From NCBI RefSeq assembly GCF_017834145.1, contig NZ_JAFIDA010000001.1:1488001-1552000 (forward strand): a stretch of DNA of 64,000 bases, in the 5' to 3' direction. This document shows, piece by piece, positions 838 through 16,421 of the stretch. The translations under genes and the position numbers were made by a program. Every line of letters begins with the position of its first letter. Position 1 is the first letter of the stretch. The notes under the pieces are model-generated. The model had not been told where the DNA came from. It saw nothing but the letters and a program-made list of their open reading frames with translations, and made no database searches. The stretch is from Leucobacter exalbidus. GTDB lineage: Bacteria; Actinomycetota; Actinomycetes; Actinomycetales; Microbacteriaceae.

Positions 838-2277
838 TTACTCCACGGATTCGGGATCGGAGGGTGAAGCCGCAGCTACCCCATCGGCTACCAGCTGGTG
901 CGCGCGTGCGTAATCGGGTAGTTCAGGGTCAATTGCGGGCGGCACCAATTCGACGTTTACAGGCGAGTGTTCACGTGCTTTCGCCGCGAGGTCAAGGAAC
1001 CTGCCGAGCATGGACTCGGGGATGTCGGTTTCGACCAGCTCGGTGCCCGCCGCTGCAATGTCTTGGAACCGGGTCAGCACGTTCTTCGGGTTCATCTGCG
1101 CGAGGATGGCACCTTGTAGCTCGCGTTGTCGTTCCATGCGCGCATAGTCGCCGTTCTCAGATCCGTAACGAGAGCGGGCATACCACTGGGCGGTAAACCC
1201 ATCCATGTGTTGCTGGCCTATTTCGATGTAACCTTCGACGCCGTTTCCAAACTGATCGCCGCCAATCGGCAGACGTTCTTGGACGTTGATATCCACGCCA
1301 CCCAATGCGTTGATGAGGTTCTCGAATGCATCCATGTTGACAAGCACGAAGAACTGCACGTCAAGTCCGGTAGCACCCGATACAGCATCCTTCGTGGCTT
1401 CCAGCCCCGGTGACGATCCTCGAGAGGCAGCATCAGCGTAGAAGCCTTCATAGAGGCTCGCGTACGCAGGATCTAAGCCCTCGGATTCCACAATGACGTC
1501 AGCCTGTTCAAGTTCCGCGTACACGCCGTTGAGGTAGCCGGTGAGGCATCCCCCGCCGTCACCGAACGAGTTGGGGCCGATACAAAAACCATTGGGATGC
1601 ACGTTATACATCGGTGACTCTTCAGGAAACGGCATCTCGGTGAGTTCTCGCGGCAGGCCGATAATGACTGACTGACCCGTCTTCGCGTCGACGCTCACGA
1701 GCGAAATGCTATCTGGGCGCATACCGTCTCGGTCGGCGCCAGCATCAGTGCCCAACAACAAAATGTTGTAACGCCCGTCCACCGGGTCTACCGCTGGTGA
1801 TCCTTGGAACAGTCCACTTAGCAAAGACCGAGTCGATCCGATCGTGCTGCTGGCCCACCCCACTCCGAGTGACGGAAGCACCGTCAATACCACGGCGATC
1901 ACAGCCACCGGTATGCGCCAGTTTGGGGTGATCCGCACGAGCTGAGTGAGGCGTAATGTGTCGAATCCCAGCACGAGCCAGAGAATTGCGTATGCCACGA
2001 GTAGCCATTGCAGCACAAATAGTGCAGCACTGTTCGTGAACAGGTTGAGGGTCGCACTGCGCGCAGCAGCGAACCCCAGCGCCGTCAATAGTGCTCCAAC
2101 GATCAGCACGATGGTGGCGATCAGGCCAATACGGCCGAGCTTACGATTGCCCGTGAGGATCTGCGCACTACCTGGTAGCAAAAATCCGATGACGACCAGC
2201 CACAAAGACCGCTTCGTCATGAGCGAAGCAGAGTCCGTGTCGGGATACCGCAGCGGCTGCTCGAGGTTCAGGGTCAT
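838..2277 (-). CDS. LCP (LytR-CpsA-Psr) family glycopolymer transferase
   Basis: This 479-residue protein has about four hydrophobic segments in its first 140 residues, then an extracytoplasmic LCP domain (about 165-430). Visible LCP features are the NILLLGTDAGADRDGMRPDSI block, whose Asp/Arg residues bind Mg2+ and pyrophosphate, the VIIGLPREL strand, and AQWYARSRYGSENGDYARMERQRELQ, the conserved R-S-R and D-x-x-R-x-x-R-Q segment. LCP enzymes move lipid-linked glycopolymers onto peptidoglycan or arabinogalactan. Four membrane segments instead of the usual one is a variant seen in some actinobacteria. Its ATG overlaps the galE stop by 4 bp, so the two are co-translated and plausibly make and attach a galactose-containing wall polymer. 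The terminator at 766-808 ends the unit. Confidence 0.92.
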   Translation of the reverse strand: MTLNLEQPLRYPDTDSASLMTKRSLWLVVIGFLLPGSAQILTGNRKLGRIGLIATIVLIVGALLTALGFAAARSATLNLFTNSAALFVLQWLLVAYAILWLVLGFDTLRLTQLVRITPNWRIPVAVIAVVLTVLPSLGVGWASSTIGSTRSLLSGLFQGSPAVDPVDGRYNILLLGTDAGADRDGMRPDSISLVSVDAKTGQSVIIGLPRELTEMPFPEESPMYNVHPNGFCIGPNSFGDGGGCLTGYLNGVYAELEQADVIVESEGLDPAYASLYEGFYADAASRGSSPGLEATKDAVSGATGLDVQFFVLVNMDAFENLINALGGVDINVQERLPIGGDQFGNGVEGYIEIGQQHMDGFTAQWYARSRYGSENGDYARMERQRELQGAILAQMNPKNVLTRFQDIAAAGTELVETDIPESMLGRFLDLAAKAREHSPVNVELVPPAIDPELPDYARAHQLVADGVAAASPSDPESVE

Positions 2278-3287
2278 TCGTCGTACCCGTTAGGGTTCGC
2301 CGACTGCCAGGTCCAAGAGTCGCGGCAGGCCTCGGCGAGGCTGCGCGTCGTCGACCATTCAAGTTCGCGGTTCGCGAGATTCGGGTCTGCCACGAGTGCA
2401 GCGACATCGCCCGTACGCGCTGGCACCACTTCGTAAGGGACAGGGCGACCAGCTGCTGCTTCGAAAGCACGTATGACATCCATCACGCTCGACCCCACAC
2501 CAGAGCCCAAGTTGTACGTCTTTACACCAGCGTCTATTCGTTCCAGAGCGGCAACGTGCCCTTCAGCCAAGTCCATCACGTGAATGTAGTCTCGTACCCC
2601 CGTGCCATCTGGTGTTGGGTAGTCGTCGCCGAATACACTCAGCTTTTCACGTTTGCCCACTGCAACCTGAGCAACGAACGGCATCAGGTTATTGGGAATA
2701 CCCGAGGGGTCTTCACCAATCCGACCCGACTGGTGTGCACCGACCGGGTTAAAGTACCGCAGCAGCACTGCACCTAAGTCAGGCCATGCCGATTGGGTAT
2801 CTCGAATGATCTGCTCATTCATGAACTTCGTCCAGCCGTAAGGGTTAGTAATTCCCACGCCAGCCGGCTGAGCTTCGTCAACGGGCACCGTTGCTGGGTC
2901 TCCGTACACCGTCGCTGATGAGCTGAACACAAGCTTATCGACGCCGCGTTCTTGCATCAGGTCGAGCAACACCACTGTCGAATCGAGGTTGACTCGGTAA
3001 TAACGTGTCGGCTGAGCTACAGATTCACCCACGGCTTTCAACCCTGCGAAGTGAACGACCGAGTCAAACTCGACATCTGCAAGTGCGGCCCGGGTAGCTG
3101 CTCGGTCGGATAGATCAGCTGTGTACACCGGAATCGTCTTACCGGTGAGAGCCTCTACGCGAGAAACCGCTTCGACGTTACTGTTCGAGAAGTCGTCGAG
3201 CACCAGTACCTCGTGGCCACGTTCCAAAAGCACAAGGGCCGTGTGGGTACCGATATAACCGGCACCGCCGGTGAGCAAAACACGCAT
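2274..3287 (-). CDS. galE: UDP-glucose 4-epimerase
   Basis: At 337 residues this is the usual length for GalE, a cytoplasmic NAD-dependent enzyme interconverting UDP-glucose and UDP-galactose. The N-terminus carries the Rossmann GGAGYIGTHTALVLLERGH motif, and VLDDFSNS follows at the expected place. The catalytic SSSATVYG Ser and the Y-x-x-x-K pair (NPYGWTKFMNE) are intact. RYFNPVGAH and GTGVRDYIHVMDLAEGH are further GalE signatures. The gene starts divergently from the glycosyltransferase at 3502 and overlaps the LCP gene downstream by 4 bp. It likely supplies UDP-galactose for envelope glycan assembly. Confidence 0.95.
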   Translation of the reverse strand: MRVLLTGGAGYIGTHTALVLLERGHEVLVLDDFSNSNVEAVSRVEALTGKTIPVYTADLSDRAATRAALADVEFDSVVHFAGLKAVGESVAQPTRYYRVNLDSTVVLLDLMQERGVDKLVFSSSATVYGDPATVPVDEAQPAGVGITNPYGWTKFMNEQIIRDTQSAWPDLGAVLLRYFNPVGAHQSGRIGEDPSGIPNNLMPFVAQVAVGKREKLSVFGDDYPTPDGTGVRDYIHVMDLAEGHVAALERIDAGVKTYNLGSGVGSSVMDVIRAFEAAAGRPVPYEVVPARTGDVAALVADPNLANRELEWSTTRSLAEACRDSWTWQSANPNGYDE

Positions 3288-3501
3288 GCCTCTAGGGTAC
3301 TGGGCGTTTTAGGTGTGGGACACTCAGTAATGCGTAGAATTCCCAGCGAGATTCTGCGTGAGAATGCCTGTGAATGTATCGGTTACGTCTCACTCGGTCA
3401 TACGACACGGCGATGTATGCGGTTCGCAGCACAGACTTCCCTACACTGTTCATAGACGCGCAATAACACGGGTGCGCTGGTTTTGAGTTTGAGGAGACGA
3501 G

Positions 3502-8486: not shown

Positions 8487-9635
8487 TTACGCGAACGCGG
8501 CGGCGGTGGCGCGAGCCTCGGCCAGCACCTCTGCGAGGCTGTCGCCCGTGACGGTGACGTGGCCGACCTTGCGGCCGGGGCGGGGCATCTTGTCGTAGCT
8601 GTGGATCTTGGCGCGCGGGTGCGCCGCGAGCACCTCTGCGTACCGCACCGGCATCGGTCCCTCAGCCGGGCCGCCCAAGACGTTGACCATCACCACGGCG
8701 GGGGCCGTCAGCGCGGTCTCGCCCAGGGGCAGGTCGGTGACCGCGCGCAGGTGCTGTTCGAACTGGCTCGTGACCGAGCCCTCGATCGAGAAGTGGCCCG
8801 AGTTGTGCGGGCGCATCGCGAGCTCGTTGACGAGCACGCGGCCGTCGCGGGTTTCAAACATTTCGACGGCGAGCACACCGGTCACTTCAACGCCCGCGGC
8901 GACGATTGCGCCGATGCGCGCGGCCTCTTCGAGCGTTGCCGCGTTCTGCACGGGCGCCGGGGCGAGTACCTCAGCGCACACCCCGTCGATCTGGATCGTC
9001 TCGACGACGGGCCAGGTGCGGGTTTCGCCGCTCGGGCGACGGGCGACGAGCTGTGATAGTTCGCGGGTGAAGTCGACGAGCTCTTCGACGAGCAGGCTGC
9101 CGCCGTGTGCGTCTTCGCCAAGCGCGGTGAACCAGTCGGCGACTTCGCCGGCAGCAGAGACGACGCGCACGCCCTTCCCGTCGTACCCACCGCGAGCGGT
9201 TTTCACGACGGCGCGGCCGCCGTGTGCATCGATAAATTCTTGCAGTGCGGCCTCGTCTGCCACGGCCGCCCAAGCGGGAATCGGCACGCCCAGCTCGGCA
9301 AGCTTCTTGCGCATCACGATCTTGTCTTGCGCGTACTGTAGCGAGTCGGGGCGCGGGTGCACCTGCACGCCGCGGGCCTCGAGTCCGTACAGAATCTCCT
9401 GCGGCACGTGCTCGTGGTCGAAGGTGATGACGTCGACTGTTTCGGCGAACGCGTAGACCGTCTCGGGGTCGCGGTAGTCACCGACCATGTCAGCGGCGCG
9501 CTCGGCGCTCGACCCTTCGGTTTCGGCGAGCACGCTAATGCGCAGCCCCAGGTGAATCGCCGGCGGAACCATCATGCGTGCGAGCTGCCCGCCGCCGATC
9601 ACGCCGACACGAATGCTGCCACTGTTCAGACTCAT
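8487..9635 (-). CDS. purK: 5-(carboxyamino)imidazole ribonucleotide synthase (PurK)
   Basis: This 382-residue ATP-grasp enzyme makes N5-CAIR from AIR, bicarbonate and ATP, the substrate of PurE. VGVIGGGQLARMM is the PurK N-terminal motif. TFDHEHVPQE matches the TFExExV region except that the first Glu position is Asp. The ATP-grasp part has KTARGGYDGKGVRV and the metal-binding NELAMRPHNSGHFSIEGSVTSQFEQHLRA, which is diagnostic for PurK. It is read toward purE but separated from it by two opposite-strand genes. Upstream lies the shared region with the MFS exporter promoter. Confidence 0.95.
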   Translation of the reverse strand: MSLNSGSIRVGVIGGGQLARMMVPPAIHLGLRISVLAETEGSSAERAADMVGDYRDPETVYAFAETVDVITFDHEHVPQEILYGLEARGVQVHPRPDSLQYAQDKIVMRKKLAELGVPIPAWAAVADEAALQEFIDAHGGRAVVKTARGGYDGKGVRVVSAAGEVADWFTALGEDAHGGSLLVEELVDFTRELSQLVARRPSGETRTWPVVETIQIDGVCAEVLAPAPVQNAATLEEAARIGAIVAAGVEVTGVLAVEMFETRDGRVLVNELAMRPHNSGHFSIEGSVTSQFEQHLRAVTDLPLGETALTAPAVVMVNVLGGPAEGPMPVRYAEVLAAHPRAKIHSYDKMPRPGRKVGHVTVTGDSLAEVLAEARATAAAFA

Positions 9636-9734
9636 GTTCTCTATTCTGCCGTACCCGCCGCCTTCTCAGGTGCACCCGCGAGGCGCTTTACTTTTCGCGC
9701 GACATTCACAGCCGCCGCATCCCCCACCGAGTTT

Positions 9735-9778
9735 GTTGACATTCATCAACCATCGACTTAAAGTTGATAATTGTCAAC
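9735..9778 (+). promoter_or_regulatory. Promoter with two 16-bp operators of the MFS-MarR operon
   Basis: Two inverted repeats with the same half-sites occur 28 bp apart: GTTGACATTCATCAAC (9735-9750) and GTTGATAATTGTCAAC (9763-9778). The first overlaps a TTGACA -35 box (9736-9741). A TAAAGT -10 candidate lies 17 bp on (9759-9764), and the second operator covers its downstream edge. This geometry fits repression by the MarR protein encoded at 11532 (inference). Confidence 0.75.
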
Positions 9779-9829
9779 GACTTACGCTCGTGAGATTTGC
9801 CCCGCCCCAAGCCAAGGATCCCCACCCGC

Positions 9830-11539
9830 ATGCCACAGCACACCCCGCAGGCGACTCCCGCGCCCCGCACCTCCAAGCGGGCACGCGCCGCGATCCCCGA
9901 TGTGCTGACGGGGCGCGGCAAAACCCTCGCGCTCACGGGCATCTTCCTCGCGTCGGCGGTGTCGATGCTGTCGATGACGGTGGTGGGCACCTCGATGCCG
10001 GTGATCCTCGCCGATCTGGGCGGCGACCAGGCCGCCTTCACCTGGGTGGTCACCGCCACGATGCTGTCAGCCGCGGTATCGACCCCCATCTGGGGCAAAC
10101 TCGCCGATCTCACGAGCAAGAAGGTGCTGCTGCAGGCCTCGCTCGTGCTCTTCACGCTCGGCTCGGTGCTCGCGGGCACCGCGGGCGACCCCGGCTGGCT
10201 GATCGCGTTTCGGGTGATTCAGGGCCTGGGCGCTGGCGGTCTCGGCGCGCTTGGCCAGATCGTGCTGGCCGAGATCATCAGCCCGCGCGAGCGCGGCAAG
10301 TACATGGGCATCATGGGCGCGATTATGGCGGTGTCGACGGTTGGCGGCCCGCTGCTGGGCGGATGGATCACCGACTCCATCGGGTGGCGCTGGAACTTCT
10401 ACGTCTCGGTGCCGATCGCCGTCACCGCAATCATCGTGCTGCAAAAAACGCTGCACCTGCGCACGATTCAGCGCAAGATCACGATCGATTACTGGGGTGC
10501 GGTGCTGATCACTGCGGGGTTCTCGAGCCTGCTGATCTGGGTGACGCTCGGCGGCACGAACTTTGCCTGGTGGTCGTGGCAGACCGCCGCGATGGTCGGC
10601 GGTGGCCTCGCGTTCCTGATCGCCGCGGTGCTTGTCGAACTCAAGGTGGACGAGCCGCTCATCCCCCTCACCCTGTTCAAAAACCGCACGTTCACGCTCT
10701 CGGTGATCGCCTCGCTCGCGGTCGGCCTCGCCATGTTTGGCACCTCGGTGTTCTTGGGCCAGTACATGCAGCTCGCGCGCGGCGAAACACCCACGATGTC
10801 GGGGCTGCTCACGATCCCGATGATGGCGGGCGTGCTGATTTCCTCGACGATCGCCGGCCAGCTGATCACCCGCACCGGCAAGTGGAAGCGCTACATGGTG
10901 ACCGGCTCGGTGCTGCTGCTCGCGGGCATGCTGATGATGGGTCAGCTGCGCTACGACACCGCCTTTTGGTACGTCGGCGTCTCCATGTTTGTGCTGGGCG
11001 TGGGCGTCGGCCTGTGCATGCAGAACCTCGTGCTGGTGGTGCAGAACACGGTCGACCCGGCCGAGCTGGGCGCATCGACCTCGGCGGTCACGTTCTTTCG
11101 CACGATCGGCGGCACCGCCGGAATGTCTGCCATGGGCGCCATGCTCGCCACCTCGGTGGTCGCCTACATCAAGGAGGGCATGCAAGATCTCACGCCCGAG
11201 CAACTCGCGGGCGCGGGCGACCTCGCCACGAGCGCGATTCCTAAGCTGAGCGAGCTTACCGAGCCCATTCGTACCGTGGTCGAGAGCGCATATGGCCACG
11301 GCATTGGTAACGTGTTCTTAGCGGCCTCACCCGTCGCGATCCTGGCGATCTGCGCGATCGCCTTCCTGCCGAACATTCCGCTGAGCACCAAGAGCAACGC
11401 GCAAAAACTTGCTGAGCAGCGCGCGAGCGATGCGCCAGCACCCCACGCACCCGATACCGCAGTGGCATACGCTGCTGGGACGACCACGGAGACGGCTGAT
11501 TTTGATCCGGATCCCACCCCGAAAGCCCCTCATGCCTGA
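9830..11539 (+). CDS. MFS drug exporter, DHA2 (14-helix, EmrB/QacA) type
   Basis: The product is about 569 residues from the ATG at 9830 (AAGGA 11 bases upstream); a TTG at 9797 would add 11 residues. It has the 14 hydrophobic segments of DHA2 proton antiporters. Family signs are an early helix with VVGTSMPVILADLGG, motif A (GKLADLTSKKVLL) and motif C (GPLLGGWITDSIGWRWNFYVSVP). The C-terminus is an Ala/Pro/Thr-rich tail. The stop overlaps the start of the MarR gene by 8 bp, so exporter and regulator are one unit behind the double operator at 9735-9778. The likely role is efflux of a toxic compound sensed by MarR; the substrate is not readable. Confidence 0.9.
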   Translation: MPQHTPQATPAPRTSKRARAAIPDVLTGRGKTLALTGIFLASAVSMLSMTVVGTSMPVILADLGGDQAAFTWVVTATMLSAAVSTPIWGKLADLTSKKVLLQASLVLFTLGSVLAGTAGDPGWLIAFRVIQGLGAGGLGALGQIVLAEIISPRERGKYMGIMGAIMAVSTVGGPLLGGWITDSIGWRWNFYVSVPIAVTAIIVLQKTLHLRTIQRKITIDYWGAVLITAGFSSLLIWVTLGGTNFAWWSWQTAAMVGGGLAFLIAAVLVELKVDEPLIPLTLFKNRTFTLSVIASLAVGLAMFGTSVFLGQYMQLARGETPTMSGLLTIPMMAGVLISSTIAGQLITRTGKWKRYMVTGSVLLLAGMLMMGQLRYDTAFWYVGVSMFVLGVGVGLCMQNLVLVVQNTVDPAELGASTSAVTFFRTIGGTAGMSAMGAMLATSVVAYIKEGMQDLTPEQLAGAGDLATSAIPKLSELTEPIRTVVESAYGHGIGNVFLAASPVAILAICAIAFLPNIPLSTKSNAQKLAEQRASDAPAPHAPDTAVAYAAGTTTETADFDPDPTPKAPHA

Positions 11540-12715: not shown

Positions 12716-13474
12716 ATGACCATGACAATGGCCGCCCCGCTGCATAGCCAGCTGTATGAAGAGATGCTTTTGCGTATTCGAACCGGCGCTTGGCCAGCCG
12801 GTGAAAAAGTACCCAGCGAGAGGTCGCTCATTGCCGAGTTCGGCACCTCTCGCGGCCCCGTGCGCCAGGCGCTCGCAACGTTGCGAGCCGAGGGTATGAT
12901 CGTGGGCGGCCGCGGTGCCCCGCCCCGCGTGCACCGCTCCGCTCCCCACCAGTCGTTCGACACTTTTATGTCATTCACGGAGTGGGCGCGGGGGCTCGGG
13001 CTGGTGCCCGGGCAACGCGTCATCGAGCGAGTGCGCAGGCCCGCCACCGAAGAGATGGCGCGTGAGCTGCAGATTGCCCCCGATGCTCCCGTCGTCGAGA
13101 TCATTCGGTTGCGGTTGCTGGGCGACAAGCCGGCCATGCTCGAGCGGTCACTGTTTCCGTTTGAGGTGGGCAAGCACCTGCTGCAGAGCCCCCTCGAGTG
13201 CGGCAGCATTTACCAGACGCTGGCGCGGGTGGGCGTGGTTCCGGTGCGAGCGAAGCACGTGATCGACGCGATTCCAGCGCACCCGCTCGAGGCCGAGCAG
13301 CTACACATCAACCAGGGCACACCGCTGCTGCGGGTGCGCCGGCTCACGTATGGGGCGTCGCAGTCGATCATCGAAACAACCGATGACCGCTACCTGCCCG
13401 AGATGACCAGCTTCGTGGTCGAGAACAACACTGACCAGCGCATGCCGCTGGCCCGGCACGCGGTGGGCGTGTAG
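12716..13474 (+). CDS. GntR-family regulator, HutC subfamily
   Basis: This 252-residue protein has an N-terminal GntR winged helix (PLHSQLYEEMLLRIRTGAWP, then GEKVPSERSLIAEFGTSRGP and VRQALATLRAEG) and a C-terminal UTRA ligand domain from about 85, including PVVEIIRLRLLGDKPAMLERSLFP and a closing LRVRRLTYG strand. HutC-type regulators respond to small metabolites such as sugars or histidine intermediates. No metabolic genes lie beside it, so it may act elsewhere or only on itself. The start lacks a clear ribosome-binding site. Confidence 0.88.
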   Translation: MTMTMAAPLHSQLYEEMLLRIRTGAWPAGEKVPSERSLIAEFGTSRGPVRQALATLRAEGMIVGGRGAPPRVHRSAPHQSFDTFMSFTEWARGLGLVPGQRVIERVRRPATEEMARELQIAPDAPVVEIIRLRLLGDKPAMLERSLFPFEVGKHLLQSPLECGSIYQTLARVGVVPVRAKHVIDAIPAHPLEAEQLHINQGTPLLRVRRLTYGASQSIIETTDDRYLPEMTSFVVENNTDQRMPLARHAVGV

Positions 13475-13539
13475 CTGTTCTTGTAGTTCTTGGGGTTGCC
13501 GCCGACTTCCCTCCACAAAGATGCTTCACTGGGGCGTCA

Positions 13540-13590
13540 TTTCACGAGTGTCCCCTAAATTCCTCGCAAAATTACGGGACACTCGTCAAA
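13540..13590. repeat. 51-bp palindromic element (22-bp arms) between the GntR and hipA genes
   Basis: The left arm (13540-13561, core ACGAGTGTCCC) and the reverse complement of the right arm (13569-13590) agree at 19 of 22 positions, around a 7-nt loop. The DNA is lower in GC than its surroundings. It may be a REP/MITE-like unit or a terminator for both convergent genes, but it lacks a T-run. Confidence 0.85.
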
Positions 13591-13656
13591 CTACGCCTCC
13601 TTCATGACACGCAAACTGCTGAATCGGTAAAGCAGCGGTGCTTCAGCCTAATGTGG

Positions 13657-14874
13657 CTAGCGAAGCGTCCGTTCGGCAAGGCGCTTCAGGGTAGGAATCG
13701 CGTCAGGGTACTGCTTCGCTCGATCCGTATCTCCGTAGGCGTCATCTATATTCGCGAGGATGCCTTCAGACACTTCTCGGGCAATCATGACGACACGATC
13801 TGGGTCTAAATCTGCTTGCTTGCTGAGATATACCCAGTCGTCAACGGAGACGTTCTTTGCGTGTCGCTGGTTTCCAATTTTCATGCCGAGCCTCTGCTCA
13901 TATTCTGGAAACATCAGCATGGGGATGGTGTCATACATGGGCGTCATCTTGACCCGTCCATCACCGGTGTGCAGTAGGGAGTAGTTTTTTGCGTGGGCAT
14001 CGGCATTACTGATTCCCACGTTGAAGGCGAGCTGACGAACAAATTCGTACTGCACATCATCGTCAATTCCGAACGTTCGTAGTAACCGTATGGTTTGCGG
14101 TGCCGATACTGAGTACTTGAATGCCGGCTCCCTCCCCAAGGCTTGCGTCAGGTCCTCCATGTGCAGGCGGCGAACATTTCCGGCCTCATCCCGTTCACGG
14201 TCAAAGCGTTCAACAGTGAAGGCCGTCACTCCCCCGAACTCGCGTAGCTCTGCATGCGCCGCCTTCACACCTCGAATTTGACTGGCCAGATGCAACGAGG
14301 CTGCCTCCAGCTCTTCAAGCCCGAGAAGTTCTTTCCGCGCTGGTTTCACGATATGAGTCGATGGGGTGCCCTTGTCGGGCCAGTACACACCTTCCTCTTC
14401 TATGACCAGCGCAAATTTACCTTGCGCCCCTGCCAACGAAAAACGAGGAGGAGCGTTATAGTCACCGAACCCGCTTCCCCCTGCGGTGATGTTCGCAATA
14501 CGTGCAGAGATGTCTGTCTGAGAAGCGTTTAATGTATACGAAACGCCTTCATCAAAGCCGTTCTCGCTCGGGTGCAGTAGGACGCCACCGGGGAGGTCGC
14601 CCTCCACGGCATAGAGCAGATCCCATGCCCCGGTGCTGCGCGCACCTGTGATGCTGCGCATGTTCTCCCTGGTTCCTGGATCCTCAGGGATGAGGCCGTT
14701 CAAGAAGTTCTGTGGCGCAGCAATATACCGAGGCTCACCGTCCCGTCGAACTGACAGTGACAAGTCGTGCCGCGCCCCAGAGTCGTAGACGAACCTGGCC
14801 CTGTGGAGAGGGCTATCCTTCTCGAACCGACCGATGTATTCTCGCTCAATCCAGGTGTGCAGAACTTCAGTCAT
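13657..14874 (-). CDS. hipA: HipA-family serine/threonine kinase toxin
   Basis: The ATG at 14874 (AGGGCGAG upstream) gives 405 residues. An N-terminal HipA-type small domain is followed by the kinase core: FSLAGAQGKFALV (Ser-Ala-Gly-Ala-Gln ATP-loop), STHIVKP with the ATP lysine, ISNADAHAKNYSLL with catalytic Asp292 and metal-binding Asn, and MTPMYDTIP with the DFG-equivalent Asp315. HipA toxins phosphorylate targets such as a tRNA synthetase and cause growth arrest or persistence. Catalytic residues are intact, so the toxin is probably active. Its start overlaps the antitoxin gene by 8 bp, the usual antitoxin-first coupling. Confidence 0.92.
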   Translation of the reverse strand: MTEVLHTWIEREYIGRFEKDSPLHRARFVYDSGARHDLSLSVRRDGEPRYIAAPQNFLNGLIPEDPGTRENMRSITGARSTGAWDLLYAVEGDLPGGVLLHPSENGFDEGVSYTLNASQTDISARIANITAGGSGFGDYNAPPRFSLAGAQGKFALVIEEEGVYWPDKGTPSTHIVKPARKELLGLEELEAASLHLASQIRGVKAAHAELREFGGVTAFTVERFDRERDEAGNVRRLHMEDLTQALGREPAFKYSVSAPQTIRLLRTFGIDDDVQYEFVRQLAFNVGISNADAHAKNYSLLHTGDGRVKMTPMYDTIPMLMFPEYEQRLGMKIGNQRHAKNVSVDDWVYLSKQADLDPDRVVMIAREVSEGILANIDDAYGDTDRAKQYPDAIPTLKRLAERTLR

Positions 14875-15502
14875 TGCTCGCCCTTTCTGCCACAATTTTC
14901 ATGAACTTGATGTCCAGTGCCCTGATCACTCGGGCGGCATCCCTGTTTGTCGTAGGGGTGACACCTTGACGTTCCAGCATGCTGACCACTTGAGGGTCTA
15001 CATGCGCGGCGTCTGCCACTTCATCGATGGTCAACCCGCGGATGGCGCGGTAGTCCCCCACTCTGCGCTTAATCAAGTCAGGTGAATCCAGAATCCAGGT
15101 GTTACGTGAGCGGTGAACATCTCGTACCTGCCAGTCATAACCCTTCTGAGCAGCACGCACCAGGGCAGCGCCCCCTCTCCCCTCAGATGGCGTGCCGCCC
15201 CACCAGTCACGCAGCAGCTTCGCTGGGTCATCTGACGCCCAGAACTGTCGTATGCGTTCACCCGCCCGCTTCTTGCGGGTGCCGGTGACGTGATCCAGGG
15301 TGCCGGTGTGCAAGAATCCGAGGAAGTCTGCCCGAGACTGGGGTGAGATGGGTCGCCCGTCACGGCGTTCAACCGCTGCCCCGGCGGGGAGTTCCCACTG
15401 GTTTCCCACCTTTACAGCGTTGGGAATTCGGTGTTCGCGCGCCAAGCGCGCAGCTCGCTGAACGCTGATTCCTTCGCGGGAAGCAAACTCTTCGAGTTTC
15501 AT
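14867..15502 (-). CDS. HipB-role antitoxin with excisionase/MerR-like N-terminal HTH
   Basis: At 211 residues this is more than twice the size of classical HipB (about 90). The N-terminus (1-50: MKLEEFASREGISVQRAARL, then HRIPNAVKVGNQWELP) matches the MerR/excisionase-like helix-turn-helix used in Xis-type DNA binders. A middle region of about 95 residues is unrecognised. The C-terminus (about 148-200: GDYRAIRGLTIDEVADAAHV and DPQVVSMLERQG) looks like the XRE-type HTH of HipB. The position before hipA, the overlap and the repeated operators at its start support an antitoxin/autorepressor role. There is no ribosome-binding site because an operator abuts the ATG; a leaderless message is likely. 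Confidence 0.75.
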   Translation of the reverse strand: MKLEEFASREGISVQRAARLAREHRIPNAVKVGNQWELPAGAAVERRDGRPISPQSRADFLGFLHTGTLDHVTGTRKKRAGERIRQFWASDDPAKLLRDWWGGTPSEGRGGAALVRAAQKGYDWQVRDVHRSRNTWILDSPDLIKRRVGDYRAIRGLTIDEVADAAHVDPQVVSMLERQGVTPTTNRDAARVIRALDIKFMKIVAERASND

Positions 15503-15542
15503 GTCACAAGTGTTTCACGCGATCCCATTAAACACAAGTGTT
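15503..15542 (-). promoter_or_regulatory. Tandem operators at the hipBA promoter
   Basis: Two copies of an AACAC-TT-GTGTT inverted repeat occur at 15531-15542 (perfect) and 15503-15514 (one change), centres 28 bp apart. The second ends exactly at the antitoxin start codon. TTTAAT between them, about 24 bases before the ATG, is a plausible -10 box. This fits HipB-type autorepression. Confidence 0.7.
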
Positions 15543-15722
15543 ATCGGGTTCACTAAACTCGAGTCTGCCTAGAGTCGCTTCTTTTGGAGTCCCGCCTCAG
15601 ACCACGCCCAGCGCTCAGACCAGGCCGCTTCCTCGCGGCACTTGGTTTTTCGCTCGCCAGATCACGCCCCAGGTTTGGGGCGGGGTTCCCGGGGGATCCG
15701 GGGTCGAATTACCAGTTGCCGG

Positions 15723-16421
15723 TTAGGCCGCGGCCTGCAGGTACTCGGCGTGCTGCCGCAGCTCTGCCTCGACCAAGATCGGCAGGTGGTCAGAGAGCCC
15801 GCGATCGAGGGTGCGCACGCTGCCGACGTCGATCCCCATCGAGGTCGCAAAGTCGAAGTGCCCGCGGAACATGCGGTACCGCGTGTAGGTGCGCTTGTCG
15901 CTGAGGTTCAGCTCGTAGCCGTTGTCGCGCATCTCGGTATCGAGGCGGCCTTTGAACACGGGGTAGTTGTAATCCCCCACCATCAGCGCGGGCAGGCCTG
16001 GGCCGAGCGCCTTCAAGCCGTCGAGCGCCGCGTGAATCTGGTGGCGCCGCAGTGAGTTCAGCGCCGTCAGCGGTGCCGCGTGGAACGATGCGACCACGAA
16101 GTCACGCTCCGTCTCGCGATCAAGCAGGCGCACCCCCAGCAGCCGCTCGTGCGCGGGCGACAGGATGCGATCGTGCAGCGACTTCTTCAGCTCAAACGTG
16201 CGGGCAGCCCGCGCGTGGTAGCGATCTGACTTCACATACACCGCGAGCCCCAAGCGGTTGCGCTCGGTGGCGTGCACGAGTGACATGCGCCCCAGATGAC
16301 TCGGAAGGGTGATCGCCTCAGCTTCCTGCAAGCACAACACGTCGGTTTCGTGATCGTCGACCAGTGCCTCGAGCTCGGTCGCGGCACGGTTCTTGCGCAG
16401 GTTGTAGCTGATGACCTTCAT
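15723..16421 (-). CDS. Endonuclease/exonuclease/phosphatase-family protein
   Basis: This 232-residue protein has the EEP fold motifs in order: MKVISYNLRKN (metal-coordinating Asn), VLCLQEAEA (catalytic Glu), FVVASFHAAP (His), ALMVGDYNYPVF (Asp-x-Asn) and RGLSDHLPILVEAEL (terminal Asp-His). All catalytic positions are present. EEP members cleave phosphodiesters in nucleic acids or phospholipids; the absence of a signal peptide suggests a cytoplasmic nuclease or phosphatase. It stands alone between the toxin-antitoxin module and the FHA operon, read in the same direction as the operon. Confidence 0.88.
   Translation of the reverse strand: MKVISYNLRKNRAATELEALVDDHETDVLCLQEAEAITLPSHLGRMSLVHATERNRLGLAVYVKSDRYHARAARTFELKKSLHDRILSPAHERLLGVRLLDRETERDFVVASFHAAPLTALNSLRRHQIHAALDGLKALGPGLPALMVGDYNYPVFKGRLDTEMRDNGYELNLSDKRTYTRYRMFRGHFDFATSMGIDVGSVRTLDRGLSDHLPILVEAELRQHAEYLQAAA

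Follow-up and report, generated by a model that had tools for sequence, protein, structure and literature searches.

The window analysed here, a stretch of 64,000 nucleotides from Leucobacter exalbidus, contains a hipA gene and, directly 5' of it on the same strand as in hipBA type II toxin-antitoxin systems, a gene for a protein with two helix-turn-helix (HTH) domains (Table 1). The sequence-only reading had proposed an ORF of 211 residues overlapping an intact hipA by 8 nt, and both points are borne out by the ORF calls and by the domains and motifs of HipA. In Pfam, the hipA product matches HipA_C (1.1e-43) and Couple_hipA, which is N-subdomain 1 of HipA (1.8e-7), comparison with solved HipA gives 3.5e-20 to E. 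coli HipA, and the kinase motifs are present in the motif table; on these three grounds we regard hipA as intact. Four HipA_C genes occur in the genome (3.18 Mb, one contig), and the one at locus L001 is preceded by a 93-aa single-XRE gene. The window HipA (13657-14874) has a further match (E 6.4e-19) to phrog_14837, a family of phage proteins of unnamed function, and some phages therefore carry HipA relatives. An inverted repeat, CGAGTGTCCC ... GGGACACTCG, was noticed by eye at 13545-13585, between a GntR gene and the 3' end of hipA and near the border of the low-G+C stretch described below, and an Rfam scan of 13400-15800 at gathering scores returned no RNA elements.

Table 1. Features of the locus, with positions in the window and the basis of each assignment.
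Feature	Positions	Strand	Basis
Two-domain HipB-type antitoxin, 211 aa	14867-15502	-	ATG ORF; Pfam HTH_3/HTH_17; homologue linkage to hipA
hipA, 405 aa from ATG at 14874, HipA-type Ser/Thr kinase toxin	13657-14874	-	Pfam, E. coli HipA match, motif table
Antitoxin/hipA overlap, 8 nt	14867-14874	-	ORF starts; 4 nt in 12 other loci
Proposed operator reader: lambda Xis-like winged HTH at the N terminus (residues 1-40)	15383-15502	-	AlphaFold model, Xis match, conserved basic recognition helix
Helical middle, residues 48-104, common to HTH protein of nucleotidyltransferase-fold gene pairs	15191-15361	-	hhalign, hmmsearch
HipB-like XRE domain (residues 134-204), proposed to dimerise and bind HipA	14891-15103	-	VIA-align, hhalign; usual DNA-reading residues lost
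Promoter/operator-like element TGAAACACTTGTGAC, abutting the start codon	15503-15517	-	Motif score p 0.0012, window outside training set
Direct repeat copy 2, AACACTTGTG	15505-15514	-	Exact copy
Direct repeat copy 1, AACACTTGTG (AACACTTGTGTT)	15533-15542	-	Exact copy

The antitoxin is not a single XRE domain, and an additional N-terminal half is found by structural modelling, fold matching and profile comparison. The AlphaFold model (mean pLDDT 86.3, 12 sequences) consists of a winged HTH at the front (helices 3-10 and 14-22, strands 30-32 and 35-37), a middle of helices 54-66, 74-89, 93-101, 112-119 and 123-131, and a rear part with a strand, four helices (141-195) and a final strand. In VIA-align, residues 1-47 superimpose on lambda Xis (1rh6) at Z 7.0, rmsd 1.4 A and 28% identity, a middling score given that a Z of 7-8 can reflect a common arrangement. 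The likeness to Xis is backed by HTH_17, which stays under the Pfam cut-off in the window protein alone (residues 3-36, E 0.007, 17 vs 27 bits) and passes it in both full-length homologues tested, and by excisionase models in one protein of a second gene-pair family presented below (TIGR01764, below its cut-off, and phrog_1840, E 1.9e-4). At the rear, HTH_3 passes the Pfam cut-off on residues 151-199 (E 8.3e-7), and the top VIA-align rows for residues ~134-202 are the HipBs of S. oneidensis (4pu7, Z 9.8) and Legionella (8ezt, 9.3), with further HipB rows from E. coli (4z5h, 8.8), hipBST (7ab3, 8.8) and 9u9g (7.8). As other XRE proteins lie within about 1 Z of the HipBs (4ghj, Z 8.7; 5woq, 8.5) and the HipB 9u9g reaches 7.8, the modelled fold alone identifies the rear domain as XRE, with HipB heading the list. 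Foldseek returned nothing for the antitoxin model at E<=0.001, the best row being HipB(Lp) 8ezt at E 0.016. The window protein is without the P-x-ALP tail that most members have and carries a one-residue insertion in its first HTH.

From the letters alone, the protein had been read as a MerR/excisionase-like HTH, an unknown middle and an XRE-like HTH at the end. The last of these agrees with the HTH_3 and HipB matches, and of the first the excisionase-like part stands; a MerR regulator was rejected, the MerR HTH model lying below its cut-off in two full-length homologues and being unlisted for the window protein. The middle resolves into a helical segment that hhalign and hmmsearch find in the second family as well. 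A frameshift or annotation artefact is ruled out by 12 further intact full-length copies.

To describe the distribution of the protein, samples of genomes from the order, family and class were searched with up to seven candidates scored per genome, so that the counts may be low. Full-length matches were found in at least 4 of 396 genomes of the order and at least 11 of 398 of the family, the window genome included in both, and among the matches listed at E<=1e-12 in 394 genomes of the class, only the window genome and G181 had one. The nine congeners listed within the family sample had none. Two fragment matches, G232 (132-203) and G086 (37-83), were counted neither as full-length nor as N-terminal-half homologues. 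Of the 12 other intact homologues, 11 come from the same family and one belongs to a different family in the order; L019/L020 and L033/L034 are near-identical pairs. Every one of the 12 has hipA directly downstream in the same orientation, the two genes overlapping by 4 nt. Homologues occurring mainly without hipA, the outcome that the sequence-only reading had named as speaking against an antitoxin, are thus ruled out for the whole protein, the sole copy without detected hipA being itself broken. This linkage lends good support to the putative antitoxin role of the 211-aa protein. The broken copy, extra to the family count, is in G438 (L109:3897-4580), where no hipA was detected in a 9-kb stretch, and at two other loci hipA is in two ORFs and the antitoxin ORF is intact (L035:2112-3123 and L075:1390-2627). 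The window antitoxin had no match in plasmids, and the antitoxin of L033 none in plasmids and phages; a single-protein search of genome contigs gave no match, and a further genome-contig scan (A1) matched two Microbacterium records.

The same association appears from the side of the kinase. A HipA search of 299 family genomes gave at least 25 matches at E<=1e-30, and the fused antitoxin accompanies every HipA at 260 bits or more (the window and six others). No fused-antitoxin match was found beside the 18 weaker HipAs, 16 of which are immediately preceded by an XRE ORF; at L091 none was detected, and in L092 the XRE part is within the same ORF. At L083, L086 and L087 the upstream XRE ORFs measure 176-274 aa as opened, their starts being unsure. 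The ORF at L092:1180-2784 (G483), 534 aa long and consisting of an XRE HipB-like part and HipA, is either a natural antitoxin-toxin fusion or an assembly effect. In the HipA tree, the partners of fused and single antitoxins are separated by one change, with a support of only 54/93.

Many homologue matches in the order, family and class samples span only about residues 3-103, and these N-half homologues mostly adjoin a partner gene other than hipA. Of the 21 loci of this kind that were fetched, 20 encode a match to the L021 protein, and in 16 a match to the L021 partner gene also lies within the fetched stretch, L042 having a short piece only and L039 the partner on the opposite side; in the N-half loci from the class search (n=8), the partner is next door in five, more than 1 kb away in two and was not found in one. 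In these pairs the gene for an Xis-like HTH protein of about 217-250 aa comes first and that for a nucleotidyltransferase-fold protein second, with overlaps of mostly 4 nt (L049:1477-2873, L061, L062, L064 and others). Seven partners tested had no Pfam match above cut-off, and five or fewer had none in NCBIfam and PADLOC. In the partner the motif GGQM...D.D...QIDVLIP is present, and for its model (pLDDT 88.6) the best Foldseek row was the ANT(2'')-Ia nucleotidyltransferase (prob 1.00, E 1.3e-3), later rows being weak. Relatives are present on 31 plasmid records, all from actinobacterial genera, including Rhodococcus, Bifidobacterium and Tsukamurella; in the two that were viewed, an overlapping upstream HTH gene was seen, which matches the first HTH at E 4e-12 and the middle only weakly. 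The pair is a candidate toxin-antitoxin family, unannotated in the libraries searched. The window genome additionally holds, at L108:2151-2822, a lone 223-aa protein with an excisionase-like HTH and another C-terminal part, and no nucleotidyltransferase-fold partner was found in that 5.5-kb stretch.

Profiles were compared using 22 of the 28 second-family proteins and 15 single HipBs. With hhalign, the N-terminal half of the antitoxin matches the second family at 99.8% (1.8e-30), and because the helical middle alone still gives 98.2% (3.9e-14) and is found by hmmsearch in 21 of the 22 proteins, the sharing goes beyond the HTH. The C-terminal part matches the single HipBs at 98.6% (1.2e-15; 15 of 15) versus 13.9% for the second family, in which its profile weakly matches 6 of 22 proteins by hmmsearch (best E 1e-5), probably at the first HTH.

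The two HTHs of the fused proteins differ in their recognition helices, as compared in 11 non-redundant fused proteins (L034 left out). The N-terminal helix has 58% identity and a net charge of +2 to +4, being basic in every fused member, against 28% identity and a net charge of -3 to +2 for the XRE helix. In XRE proteins, DNA is contacted from the positions of a glutamine in helix 2 and an arginine in the recognition helix. The glutamine is present in 0 of 11 fused proteins versus 14 of 15 single HipBs, and the arginine in 0 of 11 versus 12 of 15, the single HipBs also without it being L090, L067 and L082. Judging by these residues, the HipB half seems no longer to read DNA.

Upstream of the antitoxin gene, the two exact copies of AACACTTGTG lie 28 nt apart, start to start, and contain a short palindromic core. 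Of 200 dinucleotide-shuffled versions of the 90-nt upstream region, 1 contained a pair as good, and the spaced pair is unique in the genome with up to three mismatches allowed, which makes a chance direct repeat unlikely; a single 10-mer match is unremarkable (2 found, 2.0 expected with one mismatch). The pair was not seen in the upstream sequences of the other fused loci compared; direct repeats at L028 and L030 differ from it in sequence, those of L030 lying 23 nt apart. The sequence-only reading had placed two operators 28 bp apart at this position, and what remains of this is the exact repeat and its spacing, without a pair common to the other fused loci. Directly 5' of the start codon, 8 of the 12 other fused loci have GGTATANTTGTGWC, which places a -10-like TATA box 6 nt before the ATG, so that the message at these loci may be leaderless. 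A scan found no consensus sigma-70 promoter at the antitoxin.

The likeness of this element to second-family upstream regions was spotted by eye before the motif test, and the matrix was built from seven fused loci picked after the upstream sequences had been seen, meaning that the test was not blind. It left out L023 (start unclear) and the near-copies L020 and L034; it covered, like the inverted-repeat test, 19 of the 28 second-family loci with L023 omitted, and in addition 14 single-HipB loci, L067 (no hipA found adjoining) and L092 (XRE-HipA ORF) being noted as exceptions among the single HipBs. At p<=0.01 the motif is present in 11 of the 19 second-family loci and absent in eight, and it is found in none of the 14 single-HipB loci (lowest p 0.047). 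Eight of the 11 form one group of close relatives, and the motif-bearing loci therefore represent about four independent groups; further, three of four held-out fused loci fail the motif test, namely L030, L032 and L036, whose upstream regions are of a different type. In the second family, inverted repeats 30-38 nt long are common (9 of 19 loci at P<=0.05 for the best repeat), and none of 12 fused loci has a significant one; the inverted-repeat operator considered for the window antitoxin was likewise not significant (P 0.113). Taken over these loci, the upstream element appears to track the front half in part.

Since its recognition helix is conserved and basic, the XRE helix has lost its usual residues and the motif is shared with part of the second family, the front half is most likely the operator reader. 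We consider it probable, with a good margin of doubt, that the locus is a chromosomal hipBA module with a modular fusion antitoxin, in which the rear HipB-like part holds HipA and the front half reads the operator and autorepresses. In this mechanism, the C-terminal domain (134-204) would dimerise, bind HipA and keep the kinase inactive, the Xis-like winged HTH together with the helical middle (1-103) would recognise an operator overlapping both promoter and start codon, and the operon would be repressed by its own product, either the antitoxin or its complex with HipA. The front half and part of its operator would be common to the second gene-pair family with its putative nucleotidyltransferase-fold toxin; we infer an exchange of the front half, and any direction given to it.

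The best surviving alternative is that both HTHs read DNA, an XRE dimer and the Xis-like HTH binding neighbouring sites and clamping the repeats with their 28-bp spacing, much as had been suggested from the sequence alone, where two HTH units were thought to bridge two operators. Two HTH folds in one chain and a repeat pair with a palindromic core, rarely equalled in shuffles, are in line with such a clamp, but the XRE recognition helix is poorly conserved and without its usual DNA-reading residues, the pair is unseen upstream of the other fused genes compared, and 8 of 12 loci share a single start-abutting element instead, which leaves the clamp unlikely. Still less probable is a reading in which the N-terminal half acts in sensing or partner binding and both jobs stay with the HipB part, as they do in E. 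coli HipBA. In its favour, the XRE/HipB fold is complete, and passages of PMC10440598 propose the Panacea antitoxin domain as a sensor; against this, the N-terminal recognition helix is basic and conserved, and the motif is found at loci that have the N-terminal half and no HipB part and at none of 14 single-HipB loci.

The region has features of an acquired element. Its G+C falls to 0.54-0.57 in hipA and 0.59-0.61 in the antitoxin gene, compared with 0.61-0.72 outside, and the locus looks acquired. The flanking genes (GntR/UTRA and exonuclease/endonuclease/phosphatase) are separated by about 95 nt and 130 nt in the congener loci L100 and L101 and, by eye, lie 0.8-1.0 kb apart with another gene between them in four more, the GntR gene being outside the fetched stretch in the other 8 of 14 congener loci; no DNA match to hipBA was found in these 14 loci, fetched from 25 congeners. 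A regulator and a HipA-like kinase that act in signalling and are not a toxin-antitoxin pair would suit the chromosomal location, but this is the least probable of the readings, as the patchy distribution within the family, the lower G+C over hipA, the nearly adjacent flanking genes in two congeners and the broken copies (one relative with a broken hipA, one with a broken antitoxin and no detected hipA) are as expected of a mobile toxin-antitoxin module.

Compared with known systems, the modular hipBA reading keeps the features of hipBA (E. coli K-12, S. oneidensis HipB), namely a HipA kinase with N-subdomain 1, an overlapping upstream HTH antitoxin gene and a C-terminal HipB-like fold, whereas the antitoxin is about twice as long, has an extra Xis-like module and has lost the usual XRE DNA-reading residues. 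Its tail also has no Trp, unlike that of E. coli HipB, whose C-terminal Trp sits in a HipA pocket, as described in part of PMC10627512. The HipB of hipBST (E. coli O127, Legionella) is among the best structural matches (7ab3, 8ezt), and hipBST divides the jobs between separate HipB and HipS (passages of PMC8262856 and PMC10627512), HipB regulating transcription and not being the antitoxin (a passage of PMC8262856); a division of jobs in a Hip system therefore has precedent, although here a single chain would carry one job in each of its halves, and HipA is unsplit. Putative antitoxins bearing another kind of DNA-binding part also accompany the Hip kinases of hipRF/hipRG, hipMP and other organisations of the Hip tree, HipR being Stl-like and HipP resolvase-like in the excerpted account of PMC8262856. 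The excerpts of this Hip survey (PMC8262856) describe no excisionase-HipB fusion, and no description of the architecture was found in open-licence papers; the fusion is a new form of hipBA.

Outside the Hip systems, AbiEi has an N-terminal winged HTH as reader and a C-terminal domain sufficient for antitoxicity (from passages of PMC7319586). By analogy, this reader-front and neutraliser-rear plan would be the nearest precedent for the proposed division, and a nucleotidyltransferase-fold partner is common to AbiEi/AbiEii and the second gene-pair family. Here, however, the C-terminal part is HipB-like, and the partner in the window is HipA, not an AbiEii-type nucleotidyltransferase; AbiEi_4 matched one second-family protein only (E 0.014) and AbiEii one of seven partners tested (E 0.28). 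With lambda Xis the antitoxin has the winged HTH fold of residues 1-47 in common, but here the front half is joined with a HipB-like domain in a protein whose gene accompanies hipA. An excisionase with its own recombinase was ruled out, as no tyrosine or serine recombinase match lies within 200 kb of the locus (8 PF00589 and 4 PF00239 matches in the whole genome). In Panacea, one antitoxin part (PanA) occurs with several unrelated toxins and is favoured as a sensor in the sections of PMC10440598 on this domain; the reuse across unrelated toxins is alike, and the difference is that the shared part is here the proposed operator reader.

The sharing of the front half leads to a broader and more speculative idea, which we hold to be possible and on balance doubtful: that the Xis-like HTH and the middle are a portable 'operator address', moving between antitoxins together with its DNA site and linking HipA-kinase modules with a nucleotidyltransferase-fold toxin-antitoxin family. 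Both front-half systems were observed about 6 kb apart on one contig and the same strand in genome G598 (L119, about 1980-3359 and 9518-11409). Their upstream regions are unlike, with a motif p of 0.014, 20 nt from the start, versus 0.59, so that cross-regulation in G598 is not suggested, and our estimate for the portable address was lowered accordingly.

In hipBA, a single small HipB domain does both the operator reading and the holding of the kinase, and the two jobs are therefore hard to separate. The fused variant described here seems to split them between the halves of one protein, each of which could be tested alone. Further, it suggests that an antitoxin's DNA-reading module can pass, along with the site it targets, between modules whose toxins are unrelated, and the nucleotidyltransferase-fold gene pair, which is unannotated, emerges as a candidate toxin-antitoxin family. 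If the portable address holds true, genomes with both systems could cross-regulate them.
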